Below the pieces are notes generated by a model, which saw only the letters and a list, made by a program, of their open reading frames with translations, did no database searches and had not been told where the DNA came from. Both the position numbers and the translations under genes were made by a program. A stretch of DNA of 64,000 bases from Bacteroidales bacterium (lineage in GTDB: Bacteria > Bacteroidota > Bacteroidia > Bacteroidales > JAFGUD01). The stretch covers positions 1 to 64,000 of the forward strand of contig JAFGUD010000339.1 in the NCBI GenBank assembly GCA_016938685.1. The letters are read 5' to 3'. Positions 3,608 to 37,736 of the stretch are shown piece after piece; within the stretch, counting starts at the first letter, position 1, and each line of letters begins with the position of its first letter.

Positions 3608-4528
3608 TTATAAGTTTATTAATTTGTTACGAATTTTTTCTGTTATTAGTGTTATTTGTTGAAGTTGTTCGTCAGTCATTTCGACTATACTTTCTTCGTT
3701 TTGAATTATTGTTATGTGTCCGTCTATTACTTGTGTTTCAGGCTCTCCAACTTGATATGTTATTTTGACTTCGTCATAAATCTTCTGAAATTCTTTGAAG
3801 TCTGTAACTAAACTTTCAAAATAAGGATCGTCTTTGTAGATTTTAAGAATTGGATAAAGCATGTTGAACAAAATCTTTTGTTCTCCAATACGTTCTCTCA
3901 ATTTTTCGGATTTTTTTTCTTCTGTTACTTGTGTTAACAAATATAATCCTTCTAGCCAAACTCCTGTAATAGCAAGTAAACTAAGGTTACTTCTTCCACT
4001 TTCTCTTAGATAAGAGTCCATGTTTTGAAAACTTTGAACTGAAAGAAAAAGTAATGAATCAATGTTGTCATTGTTTGTGGCAATTCTTTTAAAAGACTGA
4101 AAATCAAAGAATTGACTTACTTTTAAATCGTCAGATAACCTTTTAATTGCTGAAAGATATTCTACAATTAACGAAGATCTTTCGTAAACGTTTAAATATC
4201 CTAAATCTGCACTCATAACTCCTAAGGCAAAAGCTTTTTTGTTATTTGTGTCGTAATTTTCAGTAAGTCCGGGATCTACCAGGTATTTTTTTGAAAATGG
4301 GACATTTAATGTACTCATAAGTGCGGCCATTTCAACAGGAGATGAAAAACTACTTATTATTTCGTTAATAGCATCTTCGTTGATAACAGGAGACTGAGTA
4401 GTATTCTGATCCATTATTAAGTCATCTAAATCCGCCTCATCATTATTGCAACCGCATCCAACAGTAAGCGATTGTAATGAAAAAATTAGTGCAAAAATTA
4501 GTATGCCTGATATATATCTTTTGAGCAT
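3608..4528 (-). CDS. Lipoprotein of unknown function
   Basis: The track ORF begins at 4576, but the internal ATG at 4528 gives MLKRYISGILIFALIF followed by a lipobox-like TVGC, a normal lipoprotein signal, so I use 4528 (306 aa). After the lipidated Cys comes a short acidic linker (NNDEADLDD) and then a mostly helical domain with no motif I can name. A Ser/Leu-rich helical region mentions no catalytic signature. It is probably anchored at the periplasmic face of the outer or inner membrane. It is first in a two-gene unit with the small secreted protein immediately downstream and has a well-spaced promoter at 4547-4577, which also supports the shorter start. Confidence 0.75.
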   Translation of the reverse strand: MLKRYISGILIFALIFSLQSLTVGCGCNNDEADLDDLIMDQNTTQSPVINEDAINEIISSFSSPVEMAALMSTLNVPFSKKYLVDPGLTENYDTNNKKAFALGVMSADLGYLNVYERSSLIVEYLSAIKRLSDDLKVSQFFDFQSFKRIATNNDNIDSLLFLSVQSFQNMDSYLRESGRSNLSLLAITGVWLEGLYLLTQVTEEKKSEKLRERIGEQKILFNMLYPILKIYKDDPYFESLVTDFKEFQKIYDEVKITYQVGEPETQVIDGHITIIQNEESIVEMTDEQLQQITLITEKIRNKLINL

Positions 4529-4546
4529 ATGAAATGGTTTATAAGG

Positions 4547-4577
4547 CAAAATTATAAATTGTTTTAATAAAATCAAA
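4547..4577 (-). promoter_or_regulatory. Bacteroidota-type promoter for the lipoprotein gene
   Basis: On the minus strand a TTTG (-33 box, 4574-4577) and a TAATTTTG (-7 box, 4547-4554) are separated by 19 bases, the expected spacing for the primary sigma factor of this phylum. The -7 box is about 18 bases upstream of the chosen ATG at 4528. Confidence 0.6.
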
Positions 4578-4668: not shown

Positions 4669-7600
4669 TTACTTGCGTTTTTTTCGTTTGCGAATAAACT
4701 TAAATAACTTTTCAATTCCCGCTAAACCTTTTTTGAAATGTTCAAAATAGAGTGGGGGATAAAGCATCAAAGTCATAAACCAAATAACAAACATGTTAAA
4801 CCAAAATGTATCGTAATATCGCCCCATAAAATATTTTCTGGGTGCGTAAAAATGAGATCTGAAGCCAATAAAGTTTGTATCATCAGGATCCTGGAAAATT
4901 GGTTCTGCTTGTCGTACTAATTTATCTTTGTAACGAAGTATTTTGTATTTTTCGTATGTATTGGTTACAATGTCTTTTAGATGTTCATTTTCATATTTGT
5001 TTCGCATCATTATGTAAACACCGGGATGTTTGCTTGCCCAGGCAATTTTTATTGCTTCTTTTTCACTGTCTTTTTGGAAGTTTATTGTTCCATAATATGC
5101 TTTTAATTCTTCAAGATAAAATATCGTTTCATCATAAATATCTTCATCAAAGTCTCTAAGAGTCAGACTGTTGACGTAATCAAAACTAACTTTCTCACCA
5201 GTTTTATTCAACTCTTTTTCAATTTCGTTTTTAACTAGTGCTAAGTTGTCGATAATCATCGAGTCTATTGAGTCAGCATTTGCATCTTCGTAAAAATCTT
5301 TTGTATCGATTCCGTCTAAAACATCTATTATATTGTTTTCTATTTCAGGAATCCAATGTACTTGCATAAAATCTGCTGTACTAATATCTTTATCTAATTC
5401 GAAAAAATAGGATTCAAATTTGTTACTCTTAAATTGATGTACCATAATTGCTTCGTAAGCCCATCTTGACTGCATAAATTCTGCTACAATTGGTACTTTA
5501 TCAACGCTTCCAATTTTTCTGTTTAATTTACTAAAACTAAACATTGCTCCTCCTAATGCCATAAGTGGAATCATGATAAGAGGAATAAGAATATAAATAG
5601 TTACGGCTGAGTTGAAAGTTGCTGAGATGTTGAGTCCAAGCATGTTGGCATAAACAAATGTGGAGAATAATGCTAACCAAAAGTAAAATCCCATTCCTAT
5701 AATTCCAAGTATTGTGTTGCCAATAAGAACGTATTCTAAGGCTTGAATAGCAGAAATAGTTATTAAAATTATTATTTTAGAAATTAGATATCCTGATCTT
5801 GATAGATTTAGAAATTTTTCCCGTTTTAGAATTTTTCTGTCTCTAAATATTTCTTCTGCACTAACTGTTAATCCCAAGAAAAGAGCAACAACAATGCTCA
5901 TGAAAATATATGGAGGTATATTTTCGTTGTCGAAAAATATATATTTAGAAGAGTTAGGGTCTGCAATGTATCTGATTAAGAAAGCAAGAATTAAACCCAA
6001 CAACGGGGCTTCGGTCATACTTAAAACTATATATTGAGTATTGCTTAATTTTGATAATATGTCTCTTGTTAAAAATATTTTGAATTGATTAAACCAATTT
6101 GGAAGATTTAATGTTTTTTGAGGTTCTTCTTCAACAATCTCAATTCTTTTAATATCTTTAGAATTATAATAAGTTTCCGACCAAGCCGGAGGTGTTACTT
6201 TTCTGTTGGGAGTGTATCTACCAAATTCGTCAACTACTTTTGATTCTATAATATCAAAAATAAGTTCAGGTTTTACTGTTCCGCAAACCGGACATTCGCC
6301 TACATCGCTGTTAACTTGTTTGTCCAGAGATTTGAAATACATAATAGCTTCTACCGGATTACCGTAATAAATTTGGTAACCGCCGGTATCAAGGATCATC
6401 ATGTTGTCAAACATTTTGTATATGTCTGACGATGGTTGGTGAATTACAACAAAGATAAGTTTTCCCTTTAAAGCTAATTCCCTGAGCAAATCCATTACGT
6501 TTTCTGAATCTCTTGATGATAATCCCGATGTTGGCTCATCAACGAAAAGAATAAGGGGTTCGCGAATTAATTCAAGTGCTATATTTAAACGTTTTCTTTG
6601 TCCTCCGCTGATAAGTTTATTAAAAACGTTACCAACTTTTAGGTGTTTTATTTTATCGAGACCTAAATTTTGAAGTGTTTTGTTAACAAGTTCTGTAAGC
6701 TCTGCTTTTCCTTTGTCTCTAAAACAAAGTTTAGCACTATAATAAAGATTTTGAAAAACTGAAAGTTCTTCAATCAACAGATCGTCCTGCGGAATATATC
6801 CTATAAGTCCTTCTAGCTTTTCTTTTTCTTTATGAAGGTTAATGCTATTAATAAGAACTTCTCCACTTGTTGGTGTATAAATACCTGAAAGAATATTTAA
6901 AAGAGTTGTTTTACCTGAACCGCTTGCTCCAAGAATACCAATTAGTTTTCCTTGTGTTTCGGAAAGGTTTACTCTTCTGAGGCCAATATCTCCGGTTGGA
7001 AATTTGTAATGAACATCAATTACGTTAAACGATAATCTGGAAATATTTATATCGGATAAAAATTTAGCAACAACATCACTGTAATAAATAGGTTTTCCCT
7101 TTGGAAGTTTTAGTGTGCTTCCGGTAGCATACAGATAAATTCTTTGGTTGCTAATAGGTAGTCCGTTAAGCTGTATGGCTTCGGAGCCCGTATAACGCAT
7201 AAAATAGAGCTCGGAGCTGGCTATCCTGAGAACTAAAAGAATACCATCAATGTGTTCAGTTTTGATAGACAAACAATGTTCGCATTGGAGGTCTACGTCA
7301 TCTATTATTAGAATGCTACTCTTGTCTAATTTTTCAAAGTCGTTTTCGATAACAAAATCTCTAATGTTATCGTATTCTTCTTTTGAGATATTAAAAACTT
7401 CAGCAACAGTATCTATAATTGCCATTCTTTGTTCGGTAAATTGTCTGCTGGTATTAACCATTTCAAACAAACGAACAAGAACAACTATTTTTTGGTTTTG
7501 GTCAAGAGTTTTGTTTATTTTTCTACAAAGAGCAAGAGTTCTAACAGATTCTTTAACCGGAGTTAGTTTTTTTTTCTTAGTAGATGCCTGCGCAAATTCT

Positions 7601-7773
7601 CCTATTTCTGCTTTTTCTTTGAATTTTGTAAGATAATCTTGTACCGCTTCGTGACCAAGTTGTTGAGTCAAGAATGATTCTACAAAATCCAGTTCTTTCA
7701 TGTGAACTCCATCGTCTTGTTTCGCTATAATTGCTAGGAGTTGTATCAGCGCATTTAAAATCTCTTCACTCAT
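4669..7773 (-). CDS. ABCG-type ABC transporter with N-terminal TerB-like and FHA-like domains
   Basis: 1034 aa, far longer than a usual ABC-2 half transporter. About residues 1-150 look like a TerB-type helical domain (short acidic helices, DQNQKIVVLVRLFEM). About 155-240 resemble an FHA-like beta sandwich. The ATPase follows: Walker A GASGSGKTT near residue 281, signature ISGGQRKRLN near 388, Walker B LILFVDEPTSG near 409. A CPVC pair near 496 could bind a metal. Membrane helices run from about 590 to 780, then a large soluble loop, then a last helix near 985. Domain order (ATPase first, membrane part last) matches the ABCG/White class. The substrate is unknown. It is the last gene of the cluster, 37 bases after the SiaC-like gene, which suggests that its activity or its soluble domains are tied to that switch. 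Confidence 0.85.
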   Translation of the reverse strand: MSEEILNALIQLLAIIAKQDDGVHMKELDFVESFLTQQLGHEAVQDYLTKFKEKAEIGEFAQASTKKKKLTPVKESVRTLALCRKINKTLDQNQKIVVLVRLFEMVNTSRQFTEQRMAIIDTVAEVFNISKEEYDNIRDFVIENDFEKLDKSSILIIDDVDLQCEHCLSIKTEHIDGILLVLRIASSELYFMRYTGSEAIQLNGLPISNQRIYLYATGSTLKLPKGKPIYYSDVVAKFLSDINISRLSFNVIDVHYKFPTGDIGLRRVNLSETQGKLIGILGASGSGKTTLLNILSGIYTPTSGEVLINSINLHKEKEKLEGLIGYIPQDDLLIEELSVFQNLYYSAKLCFRDKGKAELTELVNKTLQNLGLDKIKHLKVGNVFNKLISGGQRKRLNIALELIREPLILFVDEPTSGLSSRDSENVMDLLRELALKGKLIFVVIHQPSSDIYKMFDNMMILDTGGYQIYYGNPVEAIMYFKSLDKQVNSDVGECPVCGTVKPELIFDIIESKVVDEFGRYTPNRKVTPPAWSETYYNSKDIKRIEIVEEEPQKTLNLPNWFNQFKIFLTRDILSKLSNTQYIVLSMTEAPLLGLILAFLIRYIADPNSSKYIFFDNENIPPYIFMSIVVALFLGLTVSAEEIFRDRKILKREKFLNLSRSGYLISKIIILITISAIQALEYVLIGNTILGIIGMGFYFWLALFSTFVYANMLGLNISATFNSAVTIYILIPLIMIPLMALGGAMFSFSKLNRKIGSVDKVPIVAEFMQSRWAYEAIMVHQFKSNKFESYFFELDKDISTADFMQVHWIPEIENNIIDVLDGIDTKDFYEDANADSIDSMIIDNLALVKNEIEKELNKTGEKVSFDYVNSLTLRDFDEDIYDETIFYLEELKAYYGTINFQKDSEKEAIKIAWASKHPGVYIMMRNKYENEHLKDIVTNTYEKYKILRYKDKLVRQAEPIFQDPDDTNFIGFRSHFYAPRKYFMGRYYDTFWFNMFVIWFMTLMLYPPLYFEHFKKGLAGIEKLFKFIRKRKKRK

Positions 7774-7810: not shown

Positions 7811-8203
7811 TTAGTCAACATCATAACTTACTTGTTCAAAAGGAACTTCTACTATGTCGGCGTATTCTTCTCCGGCTTCTTCCATGTCTTCATCATCTTC
7901 GGGGTAATGCCATCTGACTAAAACATCATGTCCATCGTCGTACATATCTTCTAATTTCAGTAGAACATCAAGAAGGAGTTTTGACGAAGCAGTGTTAAAA
8001 TACTCGAGTTTGAAGTCGAATATTGTTTTCCCCAAAGGTCCTTGTGCATATTCATCAAGCCATTCTAAAATAGGTTCATAAAAAGCAACAACATCTTCCG
8101 GAAGAGAACGTCCTGAAATTTCGAAAATAGGATTATCATCGTTAGGATCTAAAATAACTTTTGGAGTATCGTCTGTTCCTTGAATTTTAATAGGCTGTAA
8201 CAT
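7811..8203 (-). CDS. siaC: SiaC-family regulatory phosphoprotein (DUF1987)
   Basis: 130 aa, the usual length of the SiaC/DUF1987 family. It opens with the family's IQGTDDTPKV and carries FEISGRSLPED and EYFNTASSKLLLDVLL. In Pseudomonas aeruginosa SiaC the Thr in the equivalent NTSS segment is phosphorylated by SiaB and dephosphorylated by SiaA; here the matching residue is Thr71. In that system unphosphorylated SiaC binds and activates the diguanylate cyclase SiaD. The very acidic C-terminus (EDDEDMEEAGEEYAD) is notable. It sits 24 bases after the SiaB-like gene and 37 before the ABC transporter. Family assignment is firm; the downstream target here is unknown because no GGDEF protein is in the window. 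Confidence 0.88.
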   Translation of the reverse strand: MLQPIKIQGTDDTPKVILDPNDDNPIFEISGRSLPEDVVAFYEPILEWLDEYAQGPLGKTIFDFKLEYFNTASSKLLLDVLLKLEDMYDDGHDVLVRWHYPEDDEDMEEAGEEYADIVEVPFEQVSYDVD

Positions 8204-8227: not shown

Positions 8228-8824
8228 TTAAATTTTGTTTTCGGTTTTTAATCTTGAAATTGTAGATGTAAGAACAAAGAAAGATTTTTCTTCATCAATT
8301 TTTATGAAGCTGTATACAAGTTTTTGTCCTGTTTTTCTGGCAATATCTATAAAACCAAGTCCTGCGCCTCCTTTTTCAGAAAGCCTACCTTCTTTTATTT
8401 TTTGTTTGTAAAGTTTGTTGAGATTTTCTTTATCAAGTTGATTTATGTGTTCTAACATTTTCTTCAACTCGTCTATTTTATCATTGATTACAACATTACC
8501 GGTTGTTACATTATATTCTTTTTCGTCTTTACTGACAAGAAATATTCCTCTTCCGTCTTTAGATTCAATAAAATTAAATTGATTATCGGCGTGTTTACTA
8601 ATATTCTGTAGACATTCAACCATAACGTGAAAGACTTTTTTCTGAACAGAACTGTAGTCTTCGTCTTTAATCATATTGTTTTCTGTCAGCGAAGTAAATG
8701 CTTTTGTAATCTGATGCGTAATTTCGCCCTCGTATGCCAAGTTAATGTTGTTACGTTTCATTTTGATATAGAAATCGTAAACAAATTCGAGAGATTTTTT
8801 ACTGTCTTTTAATATATTCACCAT
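8228..8824 (-). CDS. siaB: SiaB-family protein kinase (GHKL-like, DUF6272)
   Basis: 198 aa. An N-box-like segment VECLQNISKHADN (Glu70, Asn74, His78) and a G-box EKGGAGLGFIDIA (about 150-161) identify a GHKL-type ATP-binding fold like anti-sigma-factor kinases. In the SiaABC system SiaB phosphorylates SiaC. There is no histidine-phosphotransfer domain and no membrane segment, so it is a soluble Ser/Thr-type kinase rather than a sensor kinase. It begins 12 bases after the SpoIIE phosphatase stop and ends 24 bases before siaC, so kinase, phosphatase and substrate are in one operon. Confidence 0.85.
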   Translation of the reverse strand: MVNILKDSKKSLEFVYDFYIKMKRNNINLAYEGEITHQITKAFTSLTENNMIKDEDYSSVQKKVFHVMVECLQNISKHADNQFNFIESKDGRGIFLVSKDEKEYNVTTGNVVINDKIDELKKMLEHINQLDKENLNKLYKQKIKEGRLSEKGGAGLGFIDIARKTGQKLVYSFIKIDEEKSFFVLTSTISRLKTENKI

Positions 8825-8836: not shown

Positions 8837-11449
8837 TTAAAATTCAACACCTAAAAGAATGATATCGTCTATTTGTTTGAAATCACCTTTCCATTTTAGG
8901 AATTCAGTTTCTATAATATTTGAGTAATCAAAGATACTTACTTTTTTGTTACTTTCGATAATATCTCTAATTTGATTATTCTTAAATTTTCGTCCGTCAT
9001 TGCCTCCTATTTGATCAGCCAAACCATCAGAAAAGAAAAATATTTTATCTTTTTCGACAAATTTGATTGTGTGATTTATAAAGTTTTTTTCAGTCTTGTT
9101 TTTCATTGGAATTCCGCCAATTGCTTTAAGGGAGCCTTTATATTGTATGAATTCTCCATCTTCTTTCAGATAGTACAAAGGTCTGTGAGCACCTGCGAAG
9201 TCCAGTTGATTATTGTCTAAATTTATTTTGCATAATGCAATATCCATACCATCTCTTGCTTCAGCGTCGGGGTCGTCTTGTTTTAATGTTTTTCTAACAT
9301 CAAAATGTAGTTTGTCGAGAATTTGACCAGCATTTAGCTCTTTCCCTTCGGTAGCAACAATATTATTGATGAGGAAATAGCCAATGAATGAAAGCAGGGC
9401 ACCGGGAACTCCATGTCCGGTACAATCAATAGCTGCTATATAAACAATTTCGTTTTGAGGGAAAATCCAAGGAATATCACCACTAACTACATCACGAGGA
9501 CGATAGAACATAAATGAGTTTGGTAAAGCGTCTCTTATTTTATCTTCGGTAGGTAATATTGCAGTTTGAATTCTACGAGCGTAGTTTATACTTTCAGTAA
9601 TGCTTTTGTTTTTCTTTTCAATTTCAAGTTGAATTAGTTTTTGTTCTGTAATATCGTGAGCAACAAACAGAATGGTTTCTAGTTCGTTTAAGTCATTAAA
9701 TTCTGGTATTGCGTTAAACTGTACAATTCGTTCACCTTCTTCTTCAGAGAGGGGGAAAGTTGTTTCTGATTCAAATTTAACGTTGTTTTTTAGAATTTTA
9801 TCAAGAGCATTTTGGAAAACATTTTTTATTTCTGTTGGTAGTGTTGTGTCTTTTATTGTGTTTCCAATAAGATTTCTTTTTCCGACACTGATAAATTGTT
9901 CGGCAATTGGGTTCGCATAAAAGAATTTTCCTTCACCGTTTACCCTAACAATCATATCAATAGAATTTTCAGATAGAGCTTGCATTCTACCGCTCATACG
10001 TTGTGCCCTTTCTGCTATTTTCCGAACAGTGATATCTCGGGTATTAAAAATAATTCCGTTGATTGCGGGATTTTTTAGCAGGTTTCTTCCGGTTGTTTCC
10101 AGCCAAATTTCTTCTCCGTCAGTTTTTGTGAAAATTGTTTCAAAAGAAACCGGTTCTTCTGCATTTTCAATAAGAGCAAAAAAGGAGTTTTTAAATTTGG
10201 TGTTAGTTTCTTCGTCGAATACTGAAAATCCGTTTTTGCCAACAAGTTCTTCGGCTTCAAATCCAAGGATTGTTTTTATTGATGGACTTTCATAACTAAT
10301 AATACCATTTTTATTATATATCGAAATAACCTCAGAGGCATTTTCTAACAAAGAGTAAAGTCTTTTTTGCGAACGTTCTACTTCCGAAATTTGAGCAGCA
10401 AGTTTTCGGTTTGTTTCTTCAAGTTCTTTTTGTGTTTTTTTCATTTGTTCTGCGTTGTGACGAAGCTCTTCTTCATTTTTTTTGAGCTTATATGTCATTT
10501 CGCGAGATTCTAGAAGTAGTTTTTCAGTTCTTTCGTTAACTTTTAAGTTAAAAACTGTTTGCCCAACAATGCCACTAATTTCACGCATCAAATTAATTGT
10601 TTTGTCAGGTAAATTGTTATCTAAAGACGCAATTTCAATAACACCTTGCAGTTTTTCGTCACCTAGCAATGGAGTAATAAGAATGGATCTGGGTTTTTTG
10701 TCGCCCAAGATACCTGAAGAAATTGTAACATAATCGTCAGGAATTTCTTTTCTATATATAATGTCTTTTTCAAAAGCGGCTGCCCCAATTAATCCTTGCC
10801 CTATTTGGAAGGTTTTGTTTTCGTATTTTCTTCTATTGTATGCGTATGTTGCAATGTTTTTTAGTAATTTTTCATCATTATCGTATATGTAAAAGGCTCC
10901 TTGAACTGCGTTAACGTAGTCGACTAGAGTAACTAATGTTTCGTATGATAAATCTTCAATTTTGTTGTGGAAACGAAGAATGTCTCCAACCATTTCTTTT
11001 CCTTTTGCAATCCATGACTGTTCTGCTTCTCTTTGTGAGGTTTCAATGAGGTTATTCCGCATCAAAAGTAATGATTGTCCAAGCATATCATTTGAATCAA
11101 CTTCTAAATCTGCAGCTAGTTCTCCTTGACCGATTTTTTTTGCAAAATCGGAGTTTCTTTGAAGAACATCATTCATTTTGATGATTGTTTGGTTAAGTTC
11201 GTTTCGTATTTTGGATGTGTTGATAATAAGAACGTGAAAAATGACAGCTAGAACAAAGGGAGCTAGATCAATAATATATAGAATTCTGTTGTGGGTGTGA
11301 ATAAAATATAGCCCGTCAAAATTAAAATGTATTCCGTTTTCGTTTTTAATTTCAATAATCCATGCAACCAGTGGGAATAGCAATCCGAACAAAAAGCCTA
11401 ATAGAGTAAATCTATAATTTGTATTTCTATTTAATTTGTCTTTGGCCAT
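8837..11449 (-). CDS. Membrane GAF/PAS/SpoIIE phosphatase (SiaA-like)
   Basis: 870 aa. Two membrane helices lie at about 14-33 and 57-77, then a HAMP-like linker, a GAF domain (about 150-300), a coiled coil (about 310-375), two PAS domains (about 375-480 and 490-610) and a SpoIIE/PP2C phosphatase (about 650-870). Metal-site motifs are present: SGD, DCTGHGVPGA, RDGMDIA, FSDGLADQ and IDDIILLG. The usual SGDFYWF of the other SpoIIE proteins in the window is SGDIPWI here, with no length change. By operon position it should remove phosphate from the SiaC-like protein. Unlike Pseudomonas SiaA it carries cytoplasmic GAF and PAS sensors. A short 77-base gap with a -7-like element separates it from the PAS-array gene upstream. 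Confidence 0.88.
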   Translation of the reverse strand: MAKDKLNRNTNYRFTLLGFLFGLLFPLVAWIIEIKNENGIHFNFDGLYFIHTHNRILYIIDLAPFVLAVIFHVLIINTSKIRNELNQTIIKMNDVLQRNSDFAKKIGQGELAADLEVDSNDMLGQSLLLMRNNLIETSQREAEQSWIAKGKEMVGDILRFHNKIEDLSYETLVTLVDYVNAVQGAFYIYDNDEKLLKNIATYAYNRRKYENKTFQIGQGLIGAAAFEKDIIYRKEIPDDYVTISSGILGDKKPRSILITPLLGDEKLQGVIEIASLDNNLPDKTINLMREISGIVGQTVFNLKVNERTEKLLLESREMTYKLKKNEEELRHNAEQMKKTQKELEETNRKLAAQISEVERSQKRLYSLLENASEVISIYNKNGIISYESPSIKTILGFEAEELVGKNGFSVFDEETNTKFKNSFFALIENAEEPVSFETIFTKTDGEEIWLETTGRNLLKNPAINGIIFNTRDITVRKIAERAQRMSGRMQALSENSIDMIVRVNGEGKFFYANPIAEQFISVGKRNLIGNTIKDTTLPTEIKNVFQNALDKILKNNVKFESETTFPLSEEEGERIVQFNAIPEFNDLNELETILFVAHDITEQKLIQLEIEKKNKSITESINYARRIQTAILPTEDKIRDALPNSFMFYRPRDVVSGDIPWIFPQNEIVYIAAIDCTGHGVPGALLSFIGYFLINNIVATEGKELNAGQILDKLHFDVRKTLKQDDPDAEARDGMDIALCKINLDNNQLDFAGAHRPLYYLKEDGEFIQYKGSLKAIGGIPMKNKTEKNFINHTIKFVEKDKIFFFSDGLADQIGGNDGRKFKNNQIRDIIESNKKVSIFDYSNIIETEFLKWKGDFKQIDDIILLGVEF

Positions 11450-11526: not shown

Positions 11527-14500
11527 CTATTCCAAACTATCGAGCCAATCTTTATAAAGTTTGTCTTGTTCTGTGTCAAATTGTTCAGCTATTTCTTCCT
11601 CTAATTCTTTTAGCCTTTCATTTTCTTCTTCTACTTGTTGGAATTCTTTAAAAAGTTCATCCATGTTTTGTGTCATTATCTGTTCCTGAACCGTAAGTTC
11701 TTGTTCTAGTCTTTTTTGTTCAGAAATATCAAATGCCAAATATAATATTTTTGAAATTTTTCCTTCATTATCTTTTACTGGAGTATATTGATTTAGTAAC
11801 CAAATATCTTCGTCTGTTTTTTTGTTTTTTCTTTTTACGACAATTTGCTCTAAGTTCCCGTCGACAACACTCTTCCATAATTTAATAAAATCGTCTCTTT
11901 CTTCTTCAATAATAAATTCTAAAATATTTTTTCCGATCATTGTTTCAGGATCATATCCCATTGTATCAACGTGAATATGGTTTGACGAAATAAATAACCC
12001 TTCCGGAGTATATTCAGCTCTCATAAGGGTTTGATCAACTGCTGTGAAAAGAGCAGACAGTTCAATCTCGTTTTCTTGTGATTTCGCTAACAGTTCTACT
12101 GAACTTTGTTCTAGACGTTTTTCTTCGGTTATATCAATACCTAAGTATAATACTTCAATAACTCTGCCAGATGAATCAAAAATTGGATTATACTGATTTT
12201 TTAGCCAGATTGTTTTGTTTGTTGTTTTATTAAATCGTTTTACTACAAGCTCCTTTTGATTTCCTTGTGTTAATTCTGTCCACATTTTTTGAAAATCCTC
12301 TTTCTCTTCTTCTGGAATAAATTCAAGAATGTTTTTGCCGAGCATATTTTCAATTTTATAGCCCATTATGTTTCTGTGAACTTCATTAGATTCAAAAAAC
12401 AAACCTTCAACAGAGTATCTTGCACGCATAATTGTTCTGTCTATACCGGCTAAAATACCTTTAAGTTCTAATTCTTTTAGTTGAGCATCTATAAGTAAAT
12501 CTACAGCTTTTTGTTCAGCTTGTTTTTGTTCTGAAATATTGATGGCAAGATATAGAACTTTAATTACGTCTCCTGCCTTGTTTTTAATCGGAGTATATTG
12601 ATTAAGAAGCCATACATCCTCACCTGTTTCTTTATTTGTTCTTTTTACCGTTAGATGTTCTAAGTTGCCTTTTTTTACGCTTTCCCAAGTCTTGATAAAT
12701 TCTTCTTTGTCATTGTCCTCTATAAATTCAAGAATGTTTTTACCAGTCATTTGGGCTTTGTCGTATCCAAGTGTTTTAACGTGAATGTCATTAGAATCGA
12801 TAAATGTTCCTTCTGCTGTGTATTCTGCTCTCATAATAGCCTGATCAACACCGGAAAGAATACCGGATAATTCCAATTCTTTTTCTTGTGAACTTGTTAA
12901 TAATTCGGCGGCTATATTTTCTGCAACTTTTTGTTCTGAGATGTCAATTGCAAGATATAGTATTTTAACAATTTTCCCATTTTCATCTTCGATGGGGGTA
13001 TATTGATTTAAAAGCCAAATTTCATCACCAGTGGATTGGTTGATTCTTTTAACCGTAATTTGTTCCAGATTTCCTTCTTTAACGCTATTCCATACTTCTG
13101 TAAATTCTTCTTTGTCCTCTTCCGGAATAAAGTTTATAATATTTTGGCCTTTCATTTTTGCAATATCGTACCCTAACGTTTGAACGTGTATTTCATTAGC
13201 ATCAATAAAAGCACCATCTGGGGAGTATTCGGCACGCATAATTGCTTGGTCGATACCAATAAAAAGTCCTCGAAGTTCGTGCTCTTTTTGTTGAGTTTGT
13301 TTTAATAATTCTTGTGCTCTTGCCTCAGCAACTTTTTGTTCGGTTATGTCAATAGCAAGATAAAGAATTTTTGTTACTTTGTTGTTCTCATCTAGAATAG
13401 GATTATACTGGTTGATTAACCAAATATCTTTGCCGGTACTACGATTAACTCTTTTTACTGTTAATTCTTTTGCTTTTCCTAAACCAACTTCTCTCCATAG
13501 TTTATTAAATTCTTCTTTTTGATCTTCTTGAATAAAGTCTAAGATACTTTTCCCAATCATGTTTTTAAGTTCATATCCCATGATGCGGCGGTGAACTTCA
13601 TTTGAGCTGATAAAATTACCTTCAACAGTATATTCAGCTCGCATAATTGTTCTGTCAATACCAGAAAGAACCCCTTTTAATTCAACTTCTTTTTCTTGAG
13701 TTTCAATAAGAAGTGCGTTAGATTTTTCTTCTGCAACTTTTTGTTCGGTGATATCGATTGCCAAGTACAGCACTTTTATTACTTTACCTTTATCGTCTTT
13801 AATTGGGGTATATTGATTAAGTAGCCAAATGTCTGCTCCTGTTTGTTTGTTTTGTCTTTTTACCGTGATTTGATATGGCTTTCCACTAGAGACTTCACTC
13901 CATAACTTTTTGAAATTTTCTTTTTCTTCTTCTTGAATAAATTCCAGAATGTTTTTTCCTTTCATTTGTTCTATGTCGTAACCCATTGTTTGACGGTGAA
14001 CAAAGTTGGAGTTGATGAATTTACCATCTACAGAATATTCTGCACGCATAAGAGTTTGGTCTACTCCGGTAAGGATACCGGTCATCTCGATTTCGTTTCT
14101 TTTAGCAGATTGGTGAGCTTTGTTTACCTCTTCCATTGTTTCTTGAAGAATTTTCTCACGTGCCGAAAGTTCGTCTGATTTTTTCTGTGATTCTTTAAGT
14201 AGTTCAACTGTTCTTGCATTAATTTTAACGGCTTCTAAAGTCGAGGCAACAGAACGAGAAAGTGTTTCGGAAAATTCTATTTCGAAATCTTCAAAATTTC
14301 TAAGAGCTGCGATTTCAATTATTCCAAGCAGTCCGTTGTCTGTTAGTAAAGGCAGAATTAGAAGGTTATTTGGAGGAGAATCACCAAGGCCTGATTCGAT
14401 TTCAAGATAATCTGATGGTATTTTGTTTAGATGGATTGTCGTTTGATCTATAGCAACTGTTCCAATAAGTCCTTCTCCAAAATATATTCTTTTTGAATAA

Positions 14501-15654
14501 TATTTTTTTCTGTCGTATGCAAATGCTGCAAGAAGTTCAAGATATGGTTCTTCTTTTTCGGGATTTTGCACAATAAATAATCCACCAACGGAAGCCTCTA
14601 GATACTTAACAAGGGCTTTAATAATTTCATCGGAAAGAATGGTTAAATTATTAGAATGTTGGCGCATTAGTTCTGAAAACATATTAATTCCAGTGTTTGC
14701 CCATTCTTTTTGTTTGTCACTTTTCTGACGAATTTCTATTTCTTTTTGAGATTCAATTAGTTGATCTTTTAAAGACTGTATAGTGTTGGAAATTACATCG
14801 TTTTTGCCTAAACTTTTTAATTCAAATTCGTAATTTTTATTTTTTAATTCGTTTATATAATTATTAATTCTTTTGTAGTTATCGTTTATTTGTTTGATGG
14901 ATTTTAACGAAACTGATTTTTCTTTTTCGTCTTCTACAGATATTTTAATTGTTTCTCCAGAAGATAATCTATTCAAATAAGGTTCGATAATTTGTGGTAA
15001 TTTTAGATTTTCTTTAAAAAACACAATACTCAAAACAATAAAAAGGCCTAAAAACAATAAAAAACTAAATAAAATGCGAATTATTATTTGTGTAATATTT
15101 TTTTCCATAGAATCTATGGATATTCCAAAACTGTTATTGTTTTGTTGTTTTAATTTTTTTAAAATAGAAATTAAATTTTGGTAAGAAAGCAATTCTTTGT
15201 TGAATAACCGACTAATGTTTTTTAGACTAATTTCTTCTTTTTTATATTCGTTGAATATTTCGTAAATAATGTTTTGAAATATTTGATATTCAAGAGAAAA
15301 CTCATCAAGAGTTAAGTTCTCGTTTACGTTGTTGGTAAGGTTTTCGTATTTTTTTGTGATTTGAAGAATTGAGTCGTTAGTTTGAAAAAATGAATTTTGG
15401 ATATCAATAAAATCATCAAGTTTTTCGTAAGAAATATGATTAAACACTATAAACGAGTTTATAATTCTTTGAGAATTATTGATTAAATTGTTTTTTTGAA
15501 GATAAGTTTTTGTTAAATAGTTTTTATTTATATTAATTTCTCTTTGAAATGCGTTAAAGTGAAGAAATAATGACATAGCAAAAACAAGAACAATTACAGA
15601 AAGTATAATTATTTTCAGTCTAATTGATATATCTTTTAATTTGAGTTTACTCAT
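11527..15654 (-). CDS. Membrane sensor with GAF and six tandem PAS domains, no output domain
   Basis: 1375 aa. TM1 (about 14-31), an extracytoplasmic helical region (about 32-185), TM2 (about 190-213), a HAMP-like linker and coiled coil, a GAF domain (about 325-480) and a coiled coil, then six PAS/PAC repeats. Each repeat carries a MRAEY-like motif and ends in YLAIDI(T/S)EQK; the MRA motifs fall at residues 536, 671, 806, 941, 1076 and 1211, an exact 135-residue period. The last 65 residues are a Glu-rich coiled coil. No kinase, phosphatase, cyclase or receiver domain is present although the stop is clean. It is the first gene of the cluster leading to the SiaABC-like genes, so it probably signals by contact with a neighbour such as the SpoIIE protein, which has a similar membrane-HAMP-GAF-PAS architecture. 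That partnership is inference. Confidence 0.87.
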   Translation of the reverse strand: MSKLKLKDISIRLKIIILSVIVLVFAMSLFLHFNAFQREININKNYLTKTYLQKNNLINNSQRIINSFIVFNHISYEKLDDFIDIQNSFFQTNDSILQITKKYENLTNNVNENLTLDEFSLEYQIFQNIIYEIFNEYKKEEISLKNISRLFNKELLSYQNLISILKKLKQQNNNSFGISIDSMEKNITQIIIRILFSFLLFLGLFIVLSIVFFKENLKLPQIIEPYLNRLSSGETIKISVEDEKEKSVSLKSIKQINDNYKRINNYINELKNKNYEFELKSLGKNDVISNTIQSLKDQLIESQKEIEIRQKSDKQKEWANTGINMFSELMRQHSNNLTILSDEIIKALVKYLEASVGGLFIVQNPEKEEPYLELLAAFAYDRKKYYSKRIYFGEGLIGTVAIDQTTIHLNKIPSDYLEIESGLGDSPPNNLLILPLLTDNGLLGIIEIAALRNFEDFEIEFSETLSRSVASTLEAVKINARTVELLKESQKKSDELSAREKILQETMEEVNKAHQSAKRNEIEMTGILTGVDQTLMRAEYSVDGKFINSNFVHRQTMGYDIEQMKGKNILEFIQEEEKENFKKLWSEVSSGKPYQITVKRQNKQTGADIWLLNQYTPIKDDKGKVIKVLYLAIDITEQKVAEEKSNALLIETQEKEVELKGVLSGIDRTIMRAEYTVEGNFISSNEVHRRIMGYELKNMIGKSILDFIQEDQKEEFNKLWREVGLGKAKELTVKRVNRSTGKDIWLINQYNPILDENNKVTKILYLAIDITEQKVAEARAQELLKQTQQKEHELRGLFIGIDQAIMRAEYSPDGAFIDANEIHVQTLGYDIAKMKGQNIINFIPEEDKEEFTEVWNSVKEGNLEQITVKRINQSTGDEIWLLNQYTPIEDENGKIVKILYLAIDISEQKVAENIAAELLTSSQEKELELSGILSGVDQAIMRAEYTAEGTFIDSNDIHVKTLGYDKAQMTGKNILEFIEDNDKEEFIKTWESVKKGNLEHLTVKRTNKETGEDVWLLNQYTPIKNKAGDVIKVLYLAINISEQKQAEQKAVDLLIDAQLKELELKGILAGIDRTIMRARYSVEGLFFESNEVHRNIMGYKIENMLGKNILEFIPEEEKEDFQKMWTELTQGNQKELVVKRFNKTTNKTIWLKNQYNPIFDSSGRVIEVLYLGIDITEEKRLEQSSVELLAKSQENEIELSALFTAVDQTLMRAEYTPEGLFISSNHIHVDTMGYDPETMIGKNILEFIIEEERDDFIKLWKSVVDGNLEQIVVKRKNKKTDEDIWLLNQYTPVKDNEGKISKILYLAFDISEQKRLEQELTVQEQIMTQNMDELFKEFQQVEEENERLKELEEEIAEQFDTEQDKLYKDWLDSLE
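11665..14082 (-). repeat. Six coding tandem repeats of 405 bp (PAS array)
   Basis: The ATG of the repeated MRA motif occurs (as cat on the plus strand) at 14047, 13642, 13237, 12832, 12427 and 12022, each 405 bases apart with no insertion or deletion. Copies differ at many codons, so they are not very recent. Copies 2 and 5 share IDRTIMRA and NQYNPI; copies 3, 4 and 6 share the HVxTxGY, GNLE and ISEQK variants. Confidence 0.9.
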
Positions 15655-15768: not shown

Positions 15769-16344
15769 TTAAAGTTCTTGTTTTAAAATGAAATTCCCGA
15801 CTACTTTTTTAATTTCGTCTATTGCTTTTTTTAAGTTGTCGTTAGTTATTGTCACGTCAAATTCATTTGCAAAAGTCATTTCAAATTTGGCTTTTTCTAT
15901 TCTTTTTTTGAAACTTTCTTCTGTTTCTGTTCCTCTTTTTTGAAGGCGTTTTTTTAATTCTTCTATTGATGGTGGTTTTATAAAGATAGAAATTGAGTTT
16001 TCAGGAAATGTTTTTTTAATATTTAACCCGCCTTTTACATCAACGTCAAAAATAAGGTTTTTGTTTAAGTTCCAAACTCTTTTAACTTCTGATTTTAAGG
16101 TTCCGTAGAATTGGTTATTATATACCTCTTCCCATTCAATAAATTCGTCATTTTTTATTTTTTCTTTAAAATTATCAACAGAAAGAAAGTGATAGTCTTT
16201 GCCGTTAATTTCATTTTCTCGTGGTTTTCTACTAGCTGCTGATATGGAAAACATGAGTTTAAGTTCTTCTTCCTGCATTAGTTCTTTTACCAAAGTTGTT
16301 TTTCCGGCACCAGAAGGCGCAGAAACTATAATTAACTTGTTCAT
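15769..16344 (-). CDS. gmk: Guanylate kinase
   Basis: 191 aa, a normal length. It phosphorylates GMP to GDP with ATP in the cytoplasm. It starts with the P-loop SAPSGAGKTTLVKEL (residues 8-22); SRKPRENEINGKDYHF and the IEWEEVYNNQFYGT segment form the GMP-binding part, and a DVDVKGG motif and the lid region KRLQKRGTETEESFKKR follow. Its start lies only 3 bases after the stop of the beta-propeller/SpoIIE sensor gene, so this essential nucleotide enzyme appears to be co-transcribed with a signalling gene. Confidence 0.95.
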   Translation of the reverse strand: MNKLIIVSAPSGAGKTTLVKELMQEEELKLMFSISAASRKPRENEINGKDYHFLSVDNFKEKIKNDEFIEWEEVYNNQFYGTLKSEVKRVWNLNKNLIFDVDVKGGLNIKKTFPENSISIFIKPPSIEELKKRLQKRGTETEESFKKRIEKAKFEMTFANEFDVTITNDNLKKAIDEIKKVVGNFILKQEL

Positions 16345-16347: not shown

Positions 16348-19300
16348 TTAAAGTTTGAATCCAATAACTAAAATATCATCAGTTTGGCGTGTTGTTTCCA
16401 TCCAGTTTGTTACGGCTTTGTCAAGTATTTCTTTTTGTTCTTCCATCGGTTTTTGATAGATTTCCAGTAGCAAGTCTTTAAATCTTTTAATCATAAATTT
16501 AGAATGATCATCGCCTCCAAATTGGTCTGCATAGCCATCGGAGAAGATATAGAACCAAGTAGGGGAGCTGTATTTTATCGTGTGTCTTTCAAATTCGCCA
16601 AATTGGAATCCTCCTATTGATTGGCGACTACCTTTTATTTTTGTTATTTCTTCATTTGAAATGTAAAATAGAGGATTTTTAGCACCTGAAAATTCTACGG
16701 TTTTATTTTCTTCGTCAATAACGCAAAGAGCCATATCCATTCCGTCTTGATTTTCAGTTGTATCTTGTTTAAGGGCAGTTCTAACGTATTTGTTCAGAAG
16801 TTCAAGTATTTCTGAGGCATCTGAAACTCCTTTATTACTAACTATTGTTGTTAGGATTTCGGCTCCAATCATGCTCATAAAGGCGCCTGGAACGCCGTGT
16901 CCGGTACAATCAACTGCCGCAATGAATGCTTTGTCTTCTCTTTTTGAAAACCAATAGAAGTCGCCTGAAACTATATCGCGAGGTTTGAATAATATAAAAT
17001 GTTCTTTAAGATGTTTTTGAATAGTAGAATTTAAGGGCAACATTGCTGTTTGAATTCTTTTTGCGTATTCGATGCTTGATGTTATATCCTTATTGATTTT
17101 TTGAATTTCTTCGTTTTGTTCTGCTAATTGGTCTCTTTGTGATTCTATTTCTTCTTTTTGTTGTTCTATTTCTTGTGTTCTAAGTTTTACTTGTTCCTCC
17201 AGATATTCTTTTTGTAATCTCAATCTGCGAGTGTACCAAAATACAATTAGCCAAATAAGTAACCCTGCTAAAACAAAATATCCAATAAATGCCAAGATGG
17301 TGAGATACCAAGGCGGTTTGATTACAAATTCGTAACTGGCAATTGTGCTTTCTATTAAATATTGATTTCTTGCTTTTACTTGAAATTTGTATTCGCCGGG
17401 TTTTAAGTTTGAATAATCTTTGTAGTTTTCCGAAGTCCACTCAGACCATTTTTGATCGTTTCCTTCCAAAAAGTATTTGTATTCAATTTTATCAGGAGAT
17501 TGCAGGTATGTGCCTGAAAAAGTGAATCTTAAGTTTCCGTTTTTGTATTCTAATATAGGAATCTGAGATAGTAATTGTTCCGAACCAACTAGCGAGTCTT
17601 TTGTTATGAATGCACCATTGAAGATTATTGAATCAGAATTAAGAATTTTTACCGAACGTATAAATGCAGGGAATTCAATAGCGTAATTATTTTCGATAGT
17701 TTCGTCGTAGTGAACAAAACCGTTTGGTCCTCCGATTAGATATGTGTTTTCTGAGAGTTGGTCAAAGAAGAAGATTTTGTTTTTAAAGGGTAAAAAAGGT
17801 TCTCTAATTTTAACAAATCCACTATCTGTATTTTTTAGGTAACATAATTCCCAATTCATTTCGTCGTTGTTGGTAGTTTCTTCTTTATACCAAATATTTC
17901 CATGCGAATCTTTGTTGATAAAACGAACAGATACGTTTGTTCCAATAACATCGTTTAATTCATCGTACGGAGAAAAATTATTGTTAGATGGGTTGTATTT
18001 ATATAGACCTTCTTTGGTTGAAAAATAAAGATTGTTGTCAATTTTAAAAATTTTATTATTTTCTTGAGAAGGCAGTCCATTTAATCCGTGTATTGTATCA
18101 AATACCGTTGCTTCAGTTATTTGATTAAAGTATTGGTCAAATTTTATTTTGTAGACACCTTGGTTTTTGTTTGAAATCCAAAAATAACCGTTTTCATCTT
18201 GTTCAAGATATTCTCCGTATATATCTTGCTCGTATATTTGCTGAATATCATGAGAAAGAGTCCACTTTCCGTTGTTTTTTTTGTATATAAAAATTGCTTG
18301 TGATAATCCAATAATTGTATTTGAGTCTTCTTTGGGTACTCTGAAAATTTTAACTCCACGTACAGCTCTGTCTGTTCCTTCTGCTAAGAAATATATTGCT
18401 GTAAAATTTTCTATATCAAATAAACCGTTTGCAGAAGCTGCAATTAGTTTATTATCAACTATATCTAAAAATTCTGTCTTAATGTTTCCCGAAGGATTTT
18501 TTATTTGAGTAAAGTCTGCTTTTTTTATTTTGTTTTCATAATCAGTCCATTTTTTATAATACACACCTGATGTGGTTGCAATGTATAAAATATTATTAAA
18601 TAATTTTGAACTAAAACTTGTTGATTCGTTTTCAAAACCATTGAATTGATTGTAAGTTGTGAAAGGAGAAAAAAGATATACTGTTGAAATACCATTATCT
18701 GTACAAAGCCATAAATTTTCTTGGTTATCTAGCGTTGCCCTGTATATTTTATCGTTTTGTAAGCCGTTTTGAGATGTTATGAATTGAATGATTTTAAACT
18801 CTTTATCAGTAATTAGAATTCCTCCATCGTTAAGTTGAAAAGCATAATAGTCATCTTTAATGCTAATTGCTCTGTAAAGGTTTCTATCTATTATACTGTC
18901 AATTGGTGTCTTCTTGGGTGTTATTTTTCCATCTTTCATTGTATAGGCTCCATCGAACCATGTGAAAATCAAAAGAGAATCTTGTTTGTAATTAAGAAGT
19001 GTTCTTAAATATGAATTGTTAATTATTTCAGATTCTACTATAAATTTTAAGTCGTTATTAGCCAGTTCATAAATTCCCTTATATTTAGTGTAAATGTATA
19101 TTTTACCATTTACTTGATAAGAAATTAAAAATAGTCCTTCGGGAAAATAATTTTCGATAGGTAGAACAGTAATAGAATCGTTTTTGTATAAAAATATTTC
19201 ATCGAAAGTTTGAAAAAAGATTGCAGAATCTTCGGTAACAAAGATGTCCCATATTTTTTGAAAATCTTTATGATCATCTGGGATTTTATCGCTTAGGCTT

Positions 19301-19650
19301 TTAAATACTAAACTTCCATTTGAAGTAGGGTGTAGGTATCCGATTTCATTATCTCCGCCAACGTAAATTACATTTTTATTGTCCACGCATAAAGCTGTAA
19401 TTGATGTTTCAGTTTCTGAAACTTTTATTTTATTCCAATTTTGTCCGTCAAATTCTAAAACTGAGCCGTCGGAGTTACCGAAATACATTAATCCTCTTTG
19501 GTCTTGAACAGCTATCCAATTTTGTCTTGCTCCTGAATATGTTTCGGGAGAATAATTATTGATAAATGGAATTTCTCCCAAATTTTTTATTTGAGAAAAT
19601 GATGGTAATGTTAGAATTACTAAGAAAAATATTTGAAAAAGTTTCTTCAT
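16348..19650 (-). CDS. Periplasmic beta-propeller sensor with cytoplasmic SpoIIE phosphatase
   Basis: 1100 aa. Signal peptide (MKKLFQIFFLVILTLPSFS-Q), then two-component-regulator-type propeller repeats (about 25-690, with segments such as LCTDNGIS, NLWL and GNIWY), a Y_Y_Y-type beta-sandwich (about 700-770, ending in KPGEYKFQVKARNQ), one membrane helix (about 777-803), a coiled coil, and a SpoIIE/PP2C domain (about 880-1100) with SGDFYWF, DCTGHGVPGAFMS, QDGMDMA, FSDGYADQ and TDDILVIG. The sensor half is like that of hybrid two-component systems of this phylum, but the output is a phosphatase rather than a histidine kinase. The ligand is unknown. gmk follows after 3 bases. Confidence 0.9.
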   Translation of the reverse strand: MKKLFQIFFLVILTLPSFSQIKNLGEIPFINNYSPETYSGARQNWIAVQDQRGLMYFGNSDGSVLEFDGQNWNKIKVSETETSITALCVDNKNVIYVGGDNEIGYLHPTSNGSLVFKSLSDKIPDDHKDFQKIWDIFVTEDSAIFFQTFDEIFLYKNDSITVLPIENYFPEGLFLISYQVNGKIYIYTKYKGIYELANNDLKFIVESEIINNSYLRTLLNYKQDSLLIFTWFDGAYTMKDGKITPKKTPIDSIIDRNLYRAISIKDDYYAFQLNDGGILITDKEFKIIQFITSQNGLQNDKIYRATLDNQENLWLCTDNGISTVYLFSPFTTYNQFNGFENESTSFSSKLFNNILYIATTSGVYYKKWTDYENKIKKADFTQIKNPSGNIKTEFLDIVDNKLIAASANGLFDIENFTAIYFLAEGTDRAVRGVKIFRVPKEDSNTIIGLSQAIFIYKKNNGKWTLSHDIQQIYEQDIYGEYLEQDENGYFWISNKNQGVYKIKFDQYFNQITEATVFDTIHGLNGLPSQENNKIFKIDNNLYFSTKEGLYKYNPSNNNFSPYDELNDVIGTNVSVRFINKDSHGNIWYKEETTNNDEMNWELCYLKNTDSGFVKIREPFLPFKNKIFFFDQLSENTYLIGGPNGFVHYDETIENNYAIEFPAFIRSVKILNSDSIIFNGAFITKDSLVGSEQLLSQIPILEYKNGNLRFTFSGTYLQSPDKIEYKYFLEGNDQKWSEWTSENYKDYSNLKPGEYKFQVKARNQYLIESTIASYEFVIKPPWYLTILAFIGYFVLAGLLIWLIVFWYTRRLRLQKEYLEEQVKLRTQEIEQQKEEIESQRDQLAEQNEEIQKINKDITSSIEYAKRIQTAMLPLNSTIQKHLKEHFILFKPRDIVSGDFYWFSKREDKAFIAAVDCTGHGVPGAFMSMIGAEILTTIVSNKGVSDASEILELLNKYVRTALKQDTTENQDGMDMALCVIDEENKTVEFSGAKNPLFYISNEEITKIKGSRQSIGGFQFGEFERHTIKYSSPTWFYIFSDGYADQFGGDDHSKFMIKRFKDLLLEIYQKPMEEQKEILDKAVTNWMETTRQTDDILVIGFKL

Positions 19651-33482: not shown

Positions 33483-35348
33483 ATGTCTAAATTAATTATA
33501 TTATTGGCTTTTCTAGGACTATTTGCCATTAATCTGTTTGCTCAGGATATTGATCCTGAAGTGCAGGCAAAAATAGATGAATATCAGCAATTTGTAGATA
33601 AATACAAAGCAGAAGATAATACAGGTAGCGCAGTAAATTATTTAATTAAAATCGGAAATTTATATTGGCAGGCAAATGATGCAGATAAAGCTATTGTGGC
33701 ATACAATGAAGCTGAAATTTTACTACAAGGTTCAAGTAATACGACGGCTAAAGTGCAGTTGAGCAATTCATTAGGGTATTTGTATATGGGGCAGGGTAAT
33801 TATGTTAATGCCGAAAAATATTTTACAGATGCTTATAATATTTCACGTGATTATGCTAACTCTACTTCTTTAATTTCTTCTTTGTTAAATATAGCTCAAT
33901 GTCAACAGAATCAAAATAAATTTGAAGATGCAATTAGCTCTTATAATGAAGCCTTGACTATTGCACTTGAAATTGACGATATGAATTTAGCTGTGAAATC
34001 GTCTTCAAAAATAGCATTATGTTATCAGCAACTAGGTGATACTCAGAATTACACATATTATTATAATTTGTCTGTTAAGTTCGATAAAGAATTGAAAGAT
34101 GAAATAATTCAACAAAAACAAGATGAAGTAAATAGACAGAGCAATCTTGCCAGACAAAGTGCAATGCTTTTGCAAATGCAACAGTACAAAAATAAAATGA
34201 TGAAAGATTCTCTATCGCTTCAACAGCAACTGAATGAACAAAATGAAGCTAGAATAGAGCTTCTTAATAAACAACAAGAACTTAGAGACTCGCTTATTTT
34301 TCAACAGGAAAAAGAATTAACGAACGAGAAAAAACTTAATAAAGCTCAGAATAGAGTTATTTCGTTGTTGATTTTTGGAATTGTAATTTTTATTATAGCT
34401 TTTTTGCTCATTTTTAGATTGTATGTACTTAACAAAAAACAAAAGGAAAAATTAAACCAACTTAATGGTGAATTGAATGTTTTGAATACAAATTTGAATA
34501 ACTTAAATATTGAACTTAGCGATAAAAATGAGAAAATAGAAAAGCAGTCTGTTATTTTGCTAAAACAAAAAGAAAACCTAGAATCACAGAACAAAAAAAT
34601 ATCTGATAGTATTAATTATGCCAGCAGAATTCAACAAGCAATATTACCTGTAAAAGTTGCTATTGAAGAGAATTTTAAAGGTGCTTTTATTTTTTACAGA
34701 CCTCGTGATGTTGTAAGTGGTGATTTTTATTGGTTTGTTAAAACAAAAAAAGAAAAAATAATTGCTGCTGTCGATTGCACAGGACATAGCGTTCCCGGAG
34801 CATTTATGAGTATGATTGCCAATACTTTGCTTAATGAAATAATCAAAGCAAAAGGTGAAACTAGGTTGAATGTCGTTTTGACTCTTTTAAATCAAGGTGT
34901 TATTGAAACTTTGCATAGCTCTAAAAATGTTGAAGGAGTCAACGATGGAATGGATATAACTCTTTTGAAATTTGAAGATGGTAGCCGCAAAGCAAAATTT
35001 GCTTCTGCAAATCATGTATCAGTAGTTTTTGTTGAGGGAGAAAGATCAACCATTAATGGTGATTTTTATTCTATTGGAGGAATGGAAGATGATTATAATG
35101 TGGAATTTACCGAACAGGAAATTGACTTAGGAAAAGAAGCTACAATTTACATGTTTTCAGATGGTTTTGTTGATCAATTTAACAAGAAAGGGAAAAAGTA
35201 TATGTCAAAAAGATTCTTTAGTTTCTTAGACGATGTTCAACAAAAATCTATGCATGAACAAGAAATCAGTTTTTCAAACGAATTTGATGCATGGAAACAA
35301 GATTTTAGGCAAGTTGACGACGTACTTGTGATTGGATTGAAAGTATAG
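33483..35348 (+). CDS. TPR sensor with membrane helix and SpoIIE phosphatase
   Basis: 621 aa. Signal peptide (MSKLIILLAFLGLFAINLFA-Q), then about four tetratricopeptide repeats (about 40-205, e.g. NSLGYLYMGQGNYVNAEKYF), a Gln-rich coiled coil, one membrane helix (about 292-314), a second coiled coil and a SpoIIE/PP2C domain (about 385-621) with RPRDVVSGDFYWF, NDGMDIT, FSDGFVDQF and VDDVLVIG. The usual DCTGHGVPG is DCTGHSVPG here. The TPR part is periplasmic by topology, so this looks like a transmembrane phosphatase controlled by a protein or cell-wall partner outside. It stands alone, with its own promoter; its phosphoprotein substrate could be the SiaC-like protein, but this is inference. 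Confidence 0.88.
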   Translation: MSKLIILLAFLGLFAINLFAQDIDPEVQAKIDEYQQFVDKYKAEDNTGSAVNYLIKIGNLYWQANDADKAIVAYNEAEILLQGSSNTTAKVQLSNSLGYLYMGQGNYVNAEKYFTDAYNISRDYANSTSLISSLLNIAQCQQNQNKFEDAISSYNEALTIALEIDDMNLAVKSSSKIALCYQQLGDTQNYTYYYNLSVKFDKELKDEIIQQKQDEVNRQSNLARQSAMLLQMQQYKNKMMKDSLSLQQQLNEQNEARIELLNKQQELRDSLIFQQEKELTNEKKLNKAQNRVISLLIFGIVIFIIAFLLIFRLYVLNKKQKEKLNQLNGELNVLNTNLNNLNIELSDKNEKIEKQSVILLKQKENLESQNKKISDSINYASRIQQAILPVKVAIEENFKGAFIFYRPRDVVSGDFYWFVKTKKEKIIAAVDCTGHSVPGAFMSMIANTLLNEIIKAKGETRLNVVLTLLNQGVIETLHSSKNVEGVNDGMDITLLKFEDGSRKAKFASANHVSVVFVEGERSTINGDFYSIGGMEDDYNVEFTEQEIDLGKEATIYMFSDGFVDQFNKKGKKYMSKRFFSFLDDVQQKSMHEQEISFSNEFDAWKQDFRQVDDVLVIGLKV

Positions 35349-37238: not shown

Positions 37239-37264
37239 CGCCGATAAATTTAAAAATTATAATT

Positions 37265-37720: not shown

Positions 37721-37736
37721 TTCTAAGTTTTGACAC

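Follow-up and report, generated by a model that had tools for sequence, protein, structure and literature searches.

Signalling through coiled-coil linkers depends on heptad phase in PAS/LOV kinases (Moglich 2010, as cited in PMC6798134) and in phytochrome cyclases, the PadC diguanylate cyclases (PMC9587094). In RsbU-type PP2C phosphatases a coiled-coil linker and a partner protein that binds bring about switching (PMC12143880), SiaC phosphorylation is controlled by SiaA and SiaB (PMC7647112), and the canonical CheR pentapeptide carries aromatic residues at positions 2 and 5 and sits at the extreme C-terminus (PMC7390727). Here we compare with these systems an operon from a Bacteroidales bacterium, found in a contiguous stretch of 64,000 nucleotides (the window), whose first gene encodes a PAS array. 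As in tandem PAS/LOV/GAF histidine kinases and PadC, linkers in the array family differ by multiples of seven and PAS/GAF spacing is regular (PMC9587094, PMC6798134). Those proteins end in an effector enzyme, whereas the array protein has none, and its family reaches 14 PAS domains per chain with a ladder of seven linker lengths. As in the SiaABC(D) system of Pseudomonas aeruginosa, a PP2C phosphatase, SiaB and SiaC are co-encoded with their catalytic and phospho-site positions conserved (PMC7647112, PMC8457831), but the window phosphatase has GAF-PAS-PAS domains before its PP2C domain, the operon adds a multi-PAS receptor and a TerB-ABC transporter, and no SiaD-type GGDEF (diguanylate cyclase) gene was seen among the window operon genes tested. 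RsbU and RsbP provide a parallel for what we propose below, a PP2C switched by a dimeric coiled-coil linker and separate partners (PMC12143880), although their partners are RsbT or RsbQ and not a membrane PAS array. Finally, methyl-accepting chemotaxis proteins (MCPs) with a CheR pentapeptide resemble the array protein in a HAMP (HAMP-like in the array protein), a long helical cytoplasmic rod, a terminal aromatic motif, in some lineages a nearby CheR gene and, tentatively, a 4HB-type periplasmic input (PMC7390727). In contrast to MCPs, the array protein has a PAS array in place of the signalling domain that contacts CheA/CheW (PF00015, not found by Pfam scan), and its motif stops short of the C-terminus and lacks the canonical spacing in some members.

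Downstream of the array gene, and co-oriented with it, come the genes for the phosphatase, SiaB, SiaC and the transporter, separated by 77, 12, 24 and 37 bases in turn (Table 1). The PP2C domain matches P. aeruginosa SiaA-PP2C (6k4e), the kinase SiaB (6kko_A) and the phosphoprotein SiaC (6k4f), and the metal-site Asp motifs of the PP2C, the kinase Glu of SiaB and the phospho-Thr position of SiaC (YLNT/YFNT) are all retained. The SiaB subfamily cut-off is passed (170.7/85 bits), and the NCBI equivalog cut-offs are not reached (SiaA 143/700, SiaB 87/225, SiaC 77.5/150 bits), so that the Sia names are used here at family level only. Judged by sequence, the window genes are a homologous Sia module, not orthologues of the P. 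aeruginosa genes. Each of the ten Bacteroidales genomes tested encodes 14–21 SiaC homologues (PF09345), the window genome 20 of them, and 14 control genomes have none; the Bacteroidales counts represent a large expansion of Sia-type partner switches. Elsewhere in the window we observed a further SpoIIE/PP2C sensor phosphatase, TPR-like by eye (33483–35348), a 322-residue lipoprotein-like gene after the ABC transporter with no Pfam or NCBIfam match (3608–4576; ORFs of 300–333 residues come after the transporter in most array operons), two closely similar small lipoprotein-like genes in tandem (37196–38266), and, by eye, an apparent alpha-glucan utilisation cluster with a LacI regulator, SusC/D-like proteins, glycoside hydrolases and a transporter (44586–61467).

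Table 1. Features of the array operon and its surroundings, in window coordinates.
Feature	Coordinates	Strand	Basis
Array gene, 1375 aa	11527..15654	(-)	4-helix-bundle/TM/HAMP-like input, GAF, six PAS, coiled coil, terminal helix
N-terminal membrane sensor, residues 1-275 (TM, four-helix bundle, TM, HAMP-like)	14830..15654	(-)	AlphaFold2 model, Foldseek
GAF domain, residues 336-474	14233..14649	(-)	Pfam GAF_2 4.4e-10
PAS unit 1	13720..14124	(-)	Motif spacing, Pfam
PAS unit 2, subtype IDRT/NQYNPI	13315..13719	(-)	Motif spacing, unit tree
PAS unit 3	12910..13314	(-)	Motif spacing, unit tree
PAS unit 4	12505..12909	(-)	Motif spacing, unit tree
PAS unit 5, subtype IDRT/NQYNPI	12100..12504	(-)	Motif spacing, unit tree
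PAS unit 6	11695..12099	(-)	Motif spacing, unit tree
C-terminal coiled coil, predicted as a single unbroken helix following PAS6	11581..11694	(-)	AlphaFold2
Conserved terminal helix motif FDTEQDKLYKDWLDSLE	11530..11580	(-)	Tail comparison, AlphaFold2
GAF-PAS-PAS-SpoIIE PP2C phosphatase, SiaA-like catalytic domain	8837..11449	(-)	Pfam SpoIIE 4.1e-13; 6k4e E 7.7e-27
SiaB-family kinase	8228..8824	(-)	NF038262 170.7 bits, above cut-off; match to 6kko_A
SiaC-family phosphoprotein, YxNT Thr conserved	7811..8203	(-)	PF09345 9.4e-39; alignment to 6k4f
TerB-ABC transporter, next operon gene	4669..7773	(-)	Pfam, gene order
Guanylate kinase gene upstream	15769..16344	(-)	Synteny; common to G002, f45, f70 loci
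Reg_prop/Y_Y_Y-SpoIIE, second SiaA-like phosphatase, upstream	16348..19650	(-)	Pfam/NCBIfam; syntenic with array operon in f45, f70

A first-pass annotation of this DNA, made from the letters alone, had described six PAS domains in exact register and no output domain, over coordinates that cover the array and the tail, while the gene itself reaches upstream to 15654. The register is exact: MRA motifs lie at residues 536, 671, 806, 941, 1076 and 1211 (window positions 14049, 13644, 13239, 12834, 12429 and 12024), so that the six copies define five intervals of 135 residues, or 405 nucleotides, each without indel. The copies have diverged, as had been noted, with pairwise identities of 47–61% (amino acids) and 60–67% (nucleotides). 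Six PAS stretches are recognised by Pfam and likewise by TIGR00229, in addition to the GAF domain, and scans with Pfam and NCBIfam reveal no catalytic domain in the protein. In AlphaFold2 models, which are single-chain predictions, the N-terminal part forms a four-helix bundle between two membrane helices, followed by HAMP-like and GAF regions, the GAF at low confidence; HAMP was scored in the type-B homologue L157. Foldseek relates the N-terminal model to chemoreceptor ligand-binding domains (Vc1313, TMt 0.68–0.77; Tsr, 0.64; prob ~1), and since the E-values exceed 0.01 we treat the chemoreceptor-like input as a lead. The PAS5-PAS6-tail model contains two PAS folds linked by one 34-residue helix, with tandem LOV-PAS sensor structures as the closest fold matches, and beyond PAS6 a helix of 48 residues, which a short break separates from a terminal one of 13. 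Neither Pfam/NCBIfam nor the AlphaFold2 model shows an output domain concealed within the last 65 residues, and that possibility is rejected. Thus the statement that the array lacks an output domain stands as far as an enzyme is concerned, but it overlooked a motif in the terminal helix that is conserved.

Among 60 relatives searched, two species of the window genus and members of five other families each have a single close orthologue per genome. Extending the search to 393 genomes of the order brought in two more families as well as further species, and sampling 396 genomes across the phylum gave no additional match at E 1e-125. The order array-PP2C-SiaB-SiaC-ABC is kept in most families sampled, wherever the contig allows, except in G059, in which the remaining genes of the series could not be located close to the phosphatase. 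In 30 of the 80 named SiaB-bearing loci a receptor of the tailed type lies directly upstream of the phosphatase, the copy detector being weak in a few of them (L128, L143).

Where is the output of such a protein then? The tails end in the motif [DE]xx[Y]xxW[LIV], with the W present in every complete tail; in an alignment of 17 tail sequences it is invariant and the D nearly so. Tails are alike across families that share little else in this region (FDTEQDKLYKDWLDSLE, FNSEIDNLYSNWLNKIYEK, FDSDIDKDINDWLDDLAKG and others). In eight genomes searched with a tail profile the array protein is in each case the one strong match, from which it follows that the motif is specific to this protein and is not a general C-terminal tag. 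In f45 the motif comes only about 15 residues after the last PAS, which indicates that the coiled coil is dispensable and the motif is not. The spacing between the last PAS and the tail W does not keep to heptad steps, which suggests a flexible break and speaks against the reading proposed below. On these comparisons the terminal helix is the best candidate for the output of the array protein.

We propose, with a probability of roughly 0.5, that the array protein is a PAS rod resembling a chemoreceptor and taking several inputs, and that its coiled-coil tail controls a SiaA-type phosphatase that is a protein of its own. An MCP-type four-helix-bundle input would act via the HAMP-like and GAF regions on a rigid rod, in which PAS units are joined by parallel coiled-coil helices of a putative dimer. 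With all joints in heptad phase, signals from any PAS could be summed as helix rotation or supercoiling along one coil, and the end of the rod, a coiled coil plus a short conserved docking helix, would act on another protein. Of the possible partners we consider the co-encoded GAF-PAS-PAS-PP2C phosphatase the likeliest; we infer this docking, and likewise that in the CheR alternative discussed next, and docking on the SpoIIE protein fits the conserved array-PP2C gene order. Together with SiaB and SiaC, the phosphatase would determine the phosphorylation state of SiaC and probably also how active the neighbouring TerB-ABC transporter is.

The alternative that survives best, which we regard as tentative, is that of a methylation-adapted receptor: the terminal helix would be a docking peptide of CheR type, and glutamates in the coiled coils of the array would be methylated by CheR (and CheB), providing PP2C/SiaBC adaptation without CheA or CheW. 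In the f56 and f17 lineages a CheR methyltransferase gene divergently adjoins the array. A sister operon type has CheR, CheR2 and CheB among its own genes; in the cultured Perlabentimonas gracilis (L157) it encodes CheR, an output-less HAMP-GAF-PAS-PAS receptor, CheR2, CheB, a GAF protein, PP2C, SiaB, SiaC and the ABC transporter. Several tailed-array genomes hold an extra CheR that groups with the array-adjacent ones, among them the lone CheR of the window genome (L105:5933–6775; 93/80). In G002 the array coexists with a free CheR-CheR2-CheB cluster and no CheW, so that such a pathway needs no chemotaxis CheW, and the input domain resembles MCP four-helix-bundle ligand-binding domains, at the Foldseek E-values mentioned. 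However, the tail fits the CheR pentapeptide loosely: the Y-x-x-W spacing agrees in most arrays but 4–10 residues trail it, and f45 tails have no Y. A CheR-CheR2-CheB cluster was not found in the window genome, which is 95.5% complete, and G059 has no obvious array-type CheR among its CheR matches, as judged by score and size only. Furthermore, the type-B receptors that adjoin CheR have no tail, and in several CheR operons no receptor can be recognised between one CheR gene and the other. Loci L170, L171, L176, L181, L182, L186, L188 and L189 encode CheR, CheR2, PP2C and SiaBC with no recognisable receptor gene; in some operons, then, the phosphatase can do without the receptor, which counts against the preferred reading as well. 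Sister operons (L157:1855–15536 and L150–L189) were also seen to contain a free-standing CheB and a SLATT/GAF-like protein, some of them being without a receptor gene.

Less probable still, and in our view unlikely, is a passive rod which only spaces or clusters phosphatases at the membrane and in which PAS sensing has been lost. The first-pass annotation had suggested comparing copy number in relatives, and it varies from 2 to 14 PAS beside the same gene neighbours, as expected of a spacer: 6, 6 and 7 in the window genus (f1), 14, 13, 11 and at least 9 in f45, 6 and 5 in f70, 5 in f37, 3 in f58, f63 and f17, and 2 in f56. Against a mere spacer, the PAS cores appear to be under purifying selection between the window genome (G000) and G002 (dN 0.19, dS about 2.4, which is saturated, making dN/dS merely indicative), the conserved residues N..H..GY and W..NQY are kept in six of six window units, and f1 arrays retain position-specific subtypes. 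Two residues present in all six units (11695–14124), the conserved His of N..H...(M/L)GY and the Trp of IWL.NQY, possibly mark a ligand or cofactor site. Heme binding of the FixL type was rejected, as the F-alpha helix region, read by eye, has no His.

The unit tree bears out the two subtypes proposed in the first pass: copies 2 and 5 form one clade with their orthologues (100/97), copies 3, 4 and 6 fall within another (92/94), and copy 1 groups with 2 and 5 (95/81). Positions 1–6 correspond one-to-one between the G000 and G002 arrays, and therefore the view that the array is no simple recent expansion holds within the genus. The units of f1 form a single clade, which implies separate expansion in each family, and those of f1, f37, f70 and f45 expanded largely within their own families. 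Constant spacing alone, from which selection on helical phase had been deduced, is then no proof of it, since the f1 units arose by family-specific duplication, which also explains why f1 has a single linker value; constancy inside one array is partly inherited.

What discriminates is the variation between arrays. In 17 non-redundant orthologous arrays (2–14 PAS; sequences more than 70% identical removed) each unit was split into a core, from the A of MRAEY to the D of the D-I-T motif, and a linker, which runs on to the next A. Spacings between whole units (121, 122, 128, 131, 135, 141, 142, 147–150, 155 and 162/163) are off by one or two residues, and upon this split the irregularity disappears: cores of 90–98 residues drift by single residues, while linkers measure 25, 32, 39, 46, 53, 60 or 67 residues, with 64 of 65 equal to 25+7k (4 modulo 7). 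The one linker off the ladder, 54 residues long, lies in front of a degenerate PAS with a score of 24 bits, and 30 of 32 other PAS pairs in the same loci are on the same ladder. The chance that eight lengths drawn from 25–67 cover all seven rungs is 36/C(43,8), about 2.5e-7, a figure that counts distinct lengths only and ignores the frequency of each. Linker ends are constant and extra whole heptads sit in the middle; linker hydrophobicity peaks at a period of 3.50 (0.534, above all of 200 shuffles with mean 0.198 and SD 0.021), and the inter-PAS helices are continuous in the AlphaFold2 models. Eight arrays matched the anchor chosen for the GAF-to-PAS1 distance, and in these it is likewise constant, at 53. 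One 2397-residue receptor with 14 PAS (L031:3–7193) has linkers of 25, 32, 39, 46 and 53 in a single chain. Orthologues do therefore differ in linker length, which had been named as an observation against phase selection, yet they differ in steps of exactly seven, and this is strong evidence for heptad phase, because families, and sites within f45 arrays, have settled on different lengths of one ladder. Selection on the helical phase of the linkers is thus supported by sequence comparison. That the 135-residue register is a by-product of tandem duplication with phase unselected agrees with the uniform f1 linkers (all 39) and the single clade of genus units (82/80), but is highly improbable given seven lengths across families on one ladder with one exception and cores drifting by one, and f45 arrays that by themselves span 25, 32, 39, 46 and 53; that the spacing is a mere relic of duplication is rejected on the cross-family ladder.

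The principle of heptad linkers is already known, and the seven-rung ladder and the layout of the pathway are new variants. In the literature searched, which covered few subscription journals, we found no description of this operon type or of output-less PAS arrays, nor of a seven-rung ladder in an output-less receptor or the grouping of receptor, PP2C, Sia and CheR genes. A bolder reading, which we hold only tentatively, is that this is an undescribed Bacteroidales system in which an extensible PAS rod in heptad phase stands in for the kinase-control tip of a chemoreceptor, adaptation is by methylation of the CheR/CheB type, and the short terminal helix acts on PP2C/SiaB/SiaC with no CheA or CheW. 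The array family offers an unusually clean natural experiment on helix signalling, where seven linker lengths have been sampled and only heptad phase was kept while domain loops vary. A receptor of this kind can gain whole sensors, from 2 to 14, with signal transmission unbroken. The terminal motif and the linker ladder give direct predictions for mutagenesis, and the operon suggests a layout for PP2C/Sia signalling, which is widespread in Bacteroidales, with sensor and phosphatase as separate proteins.
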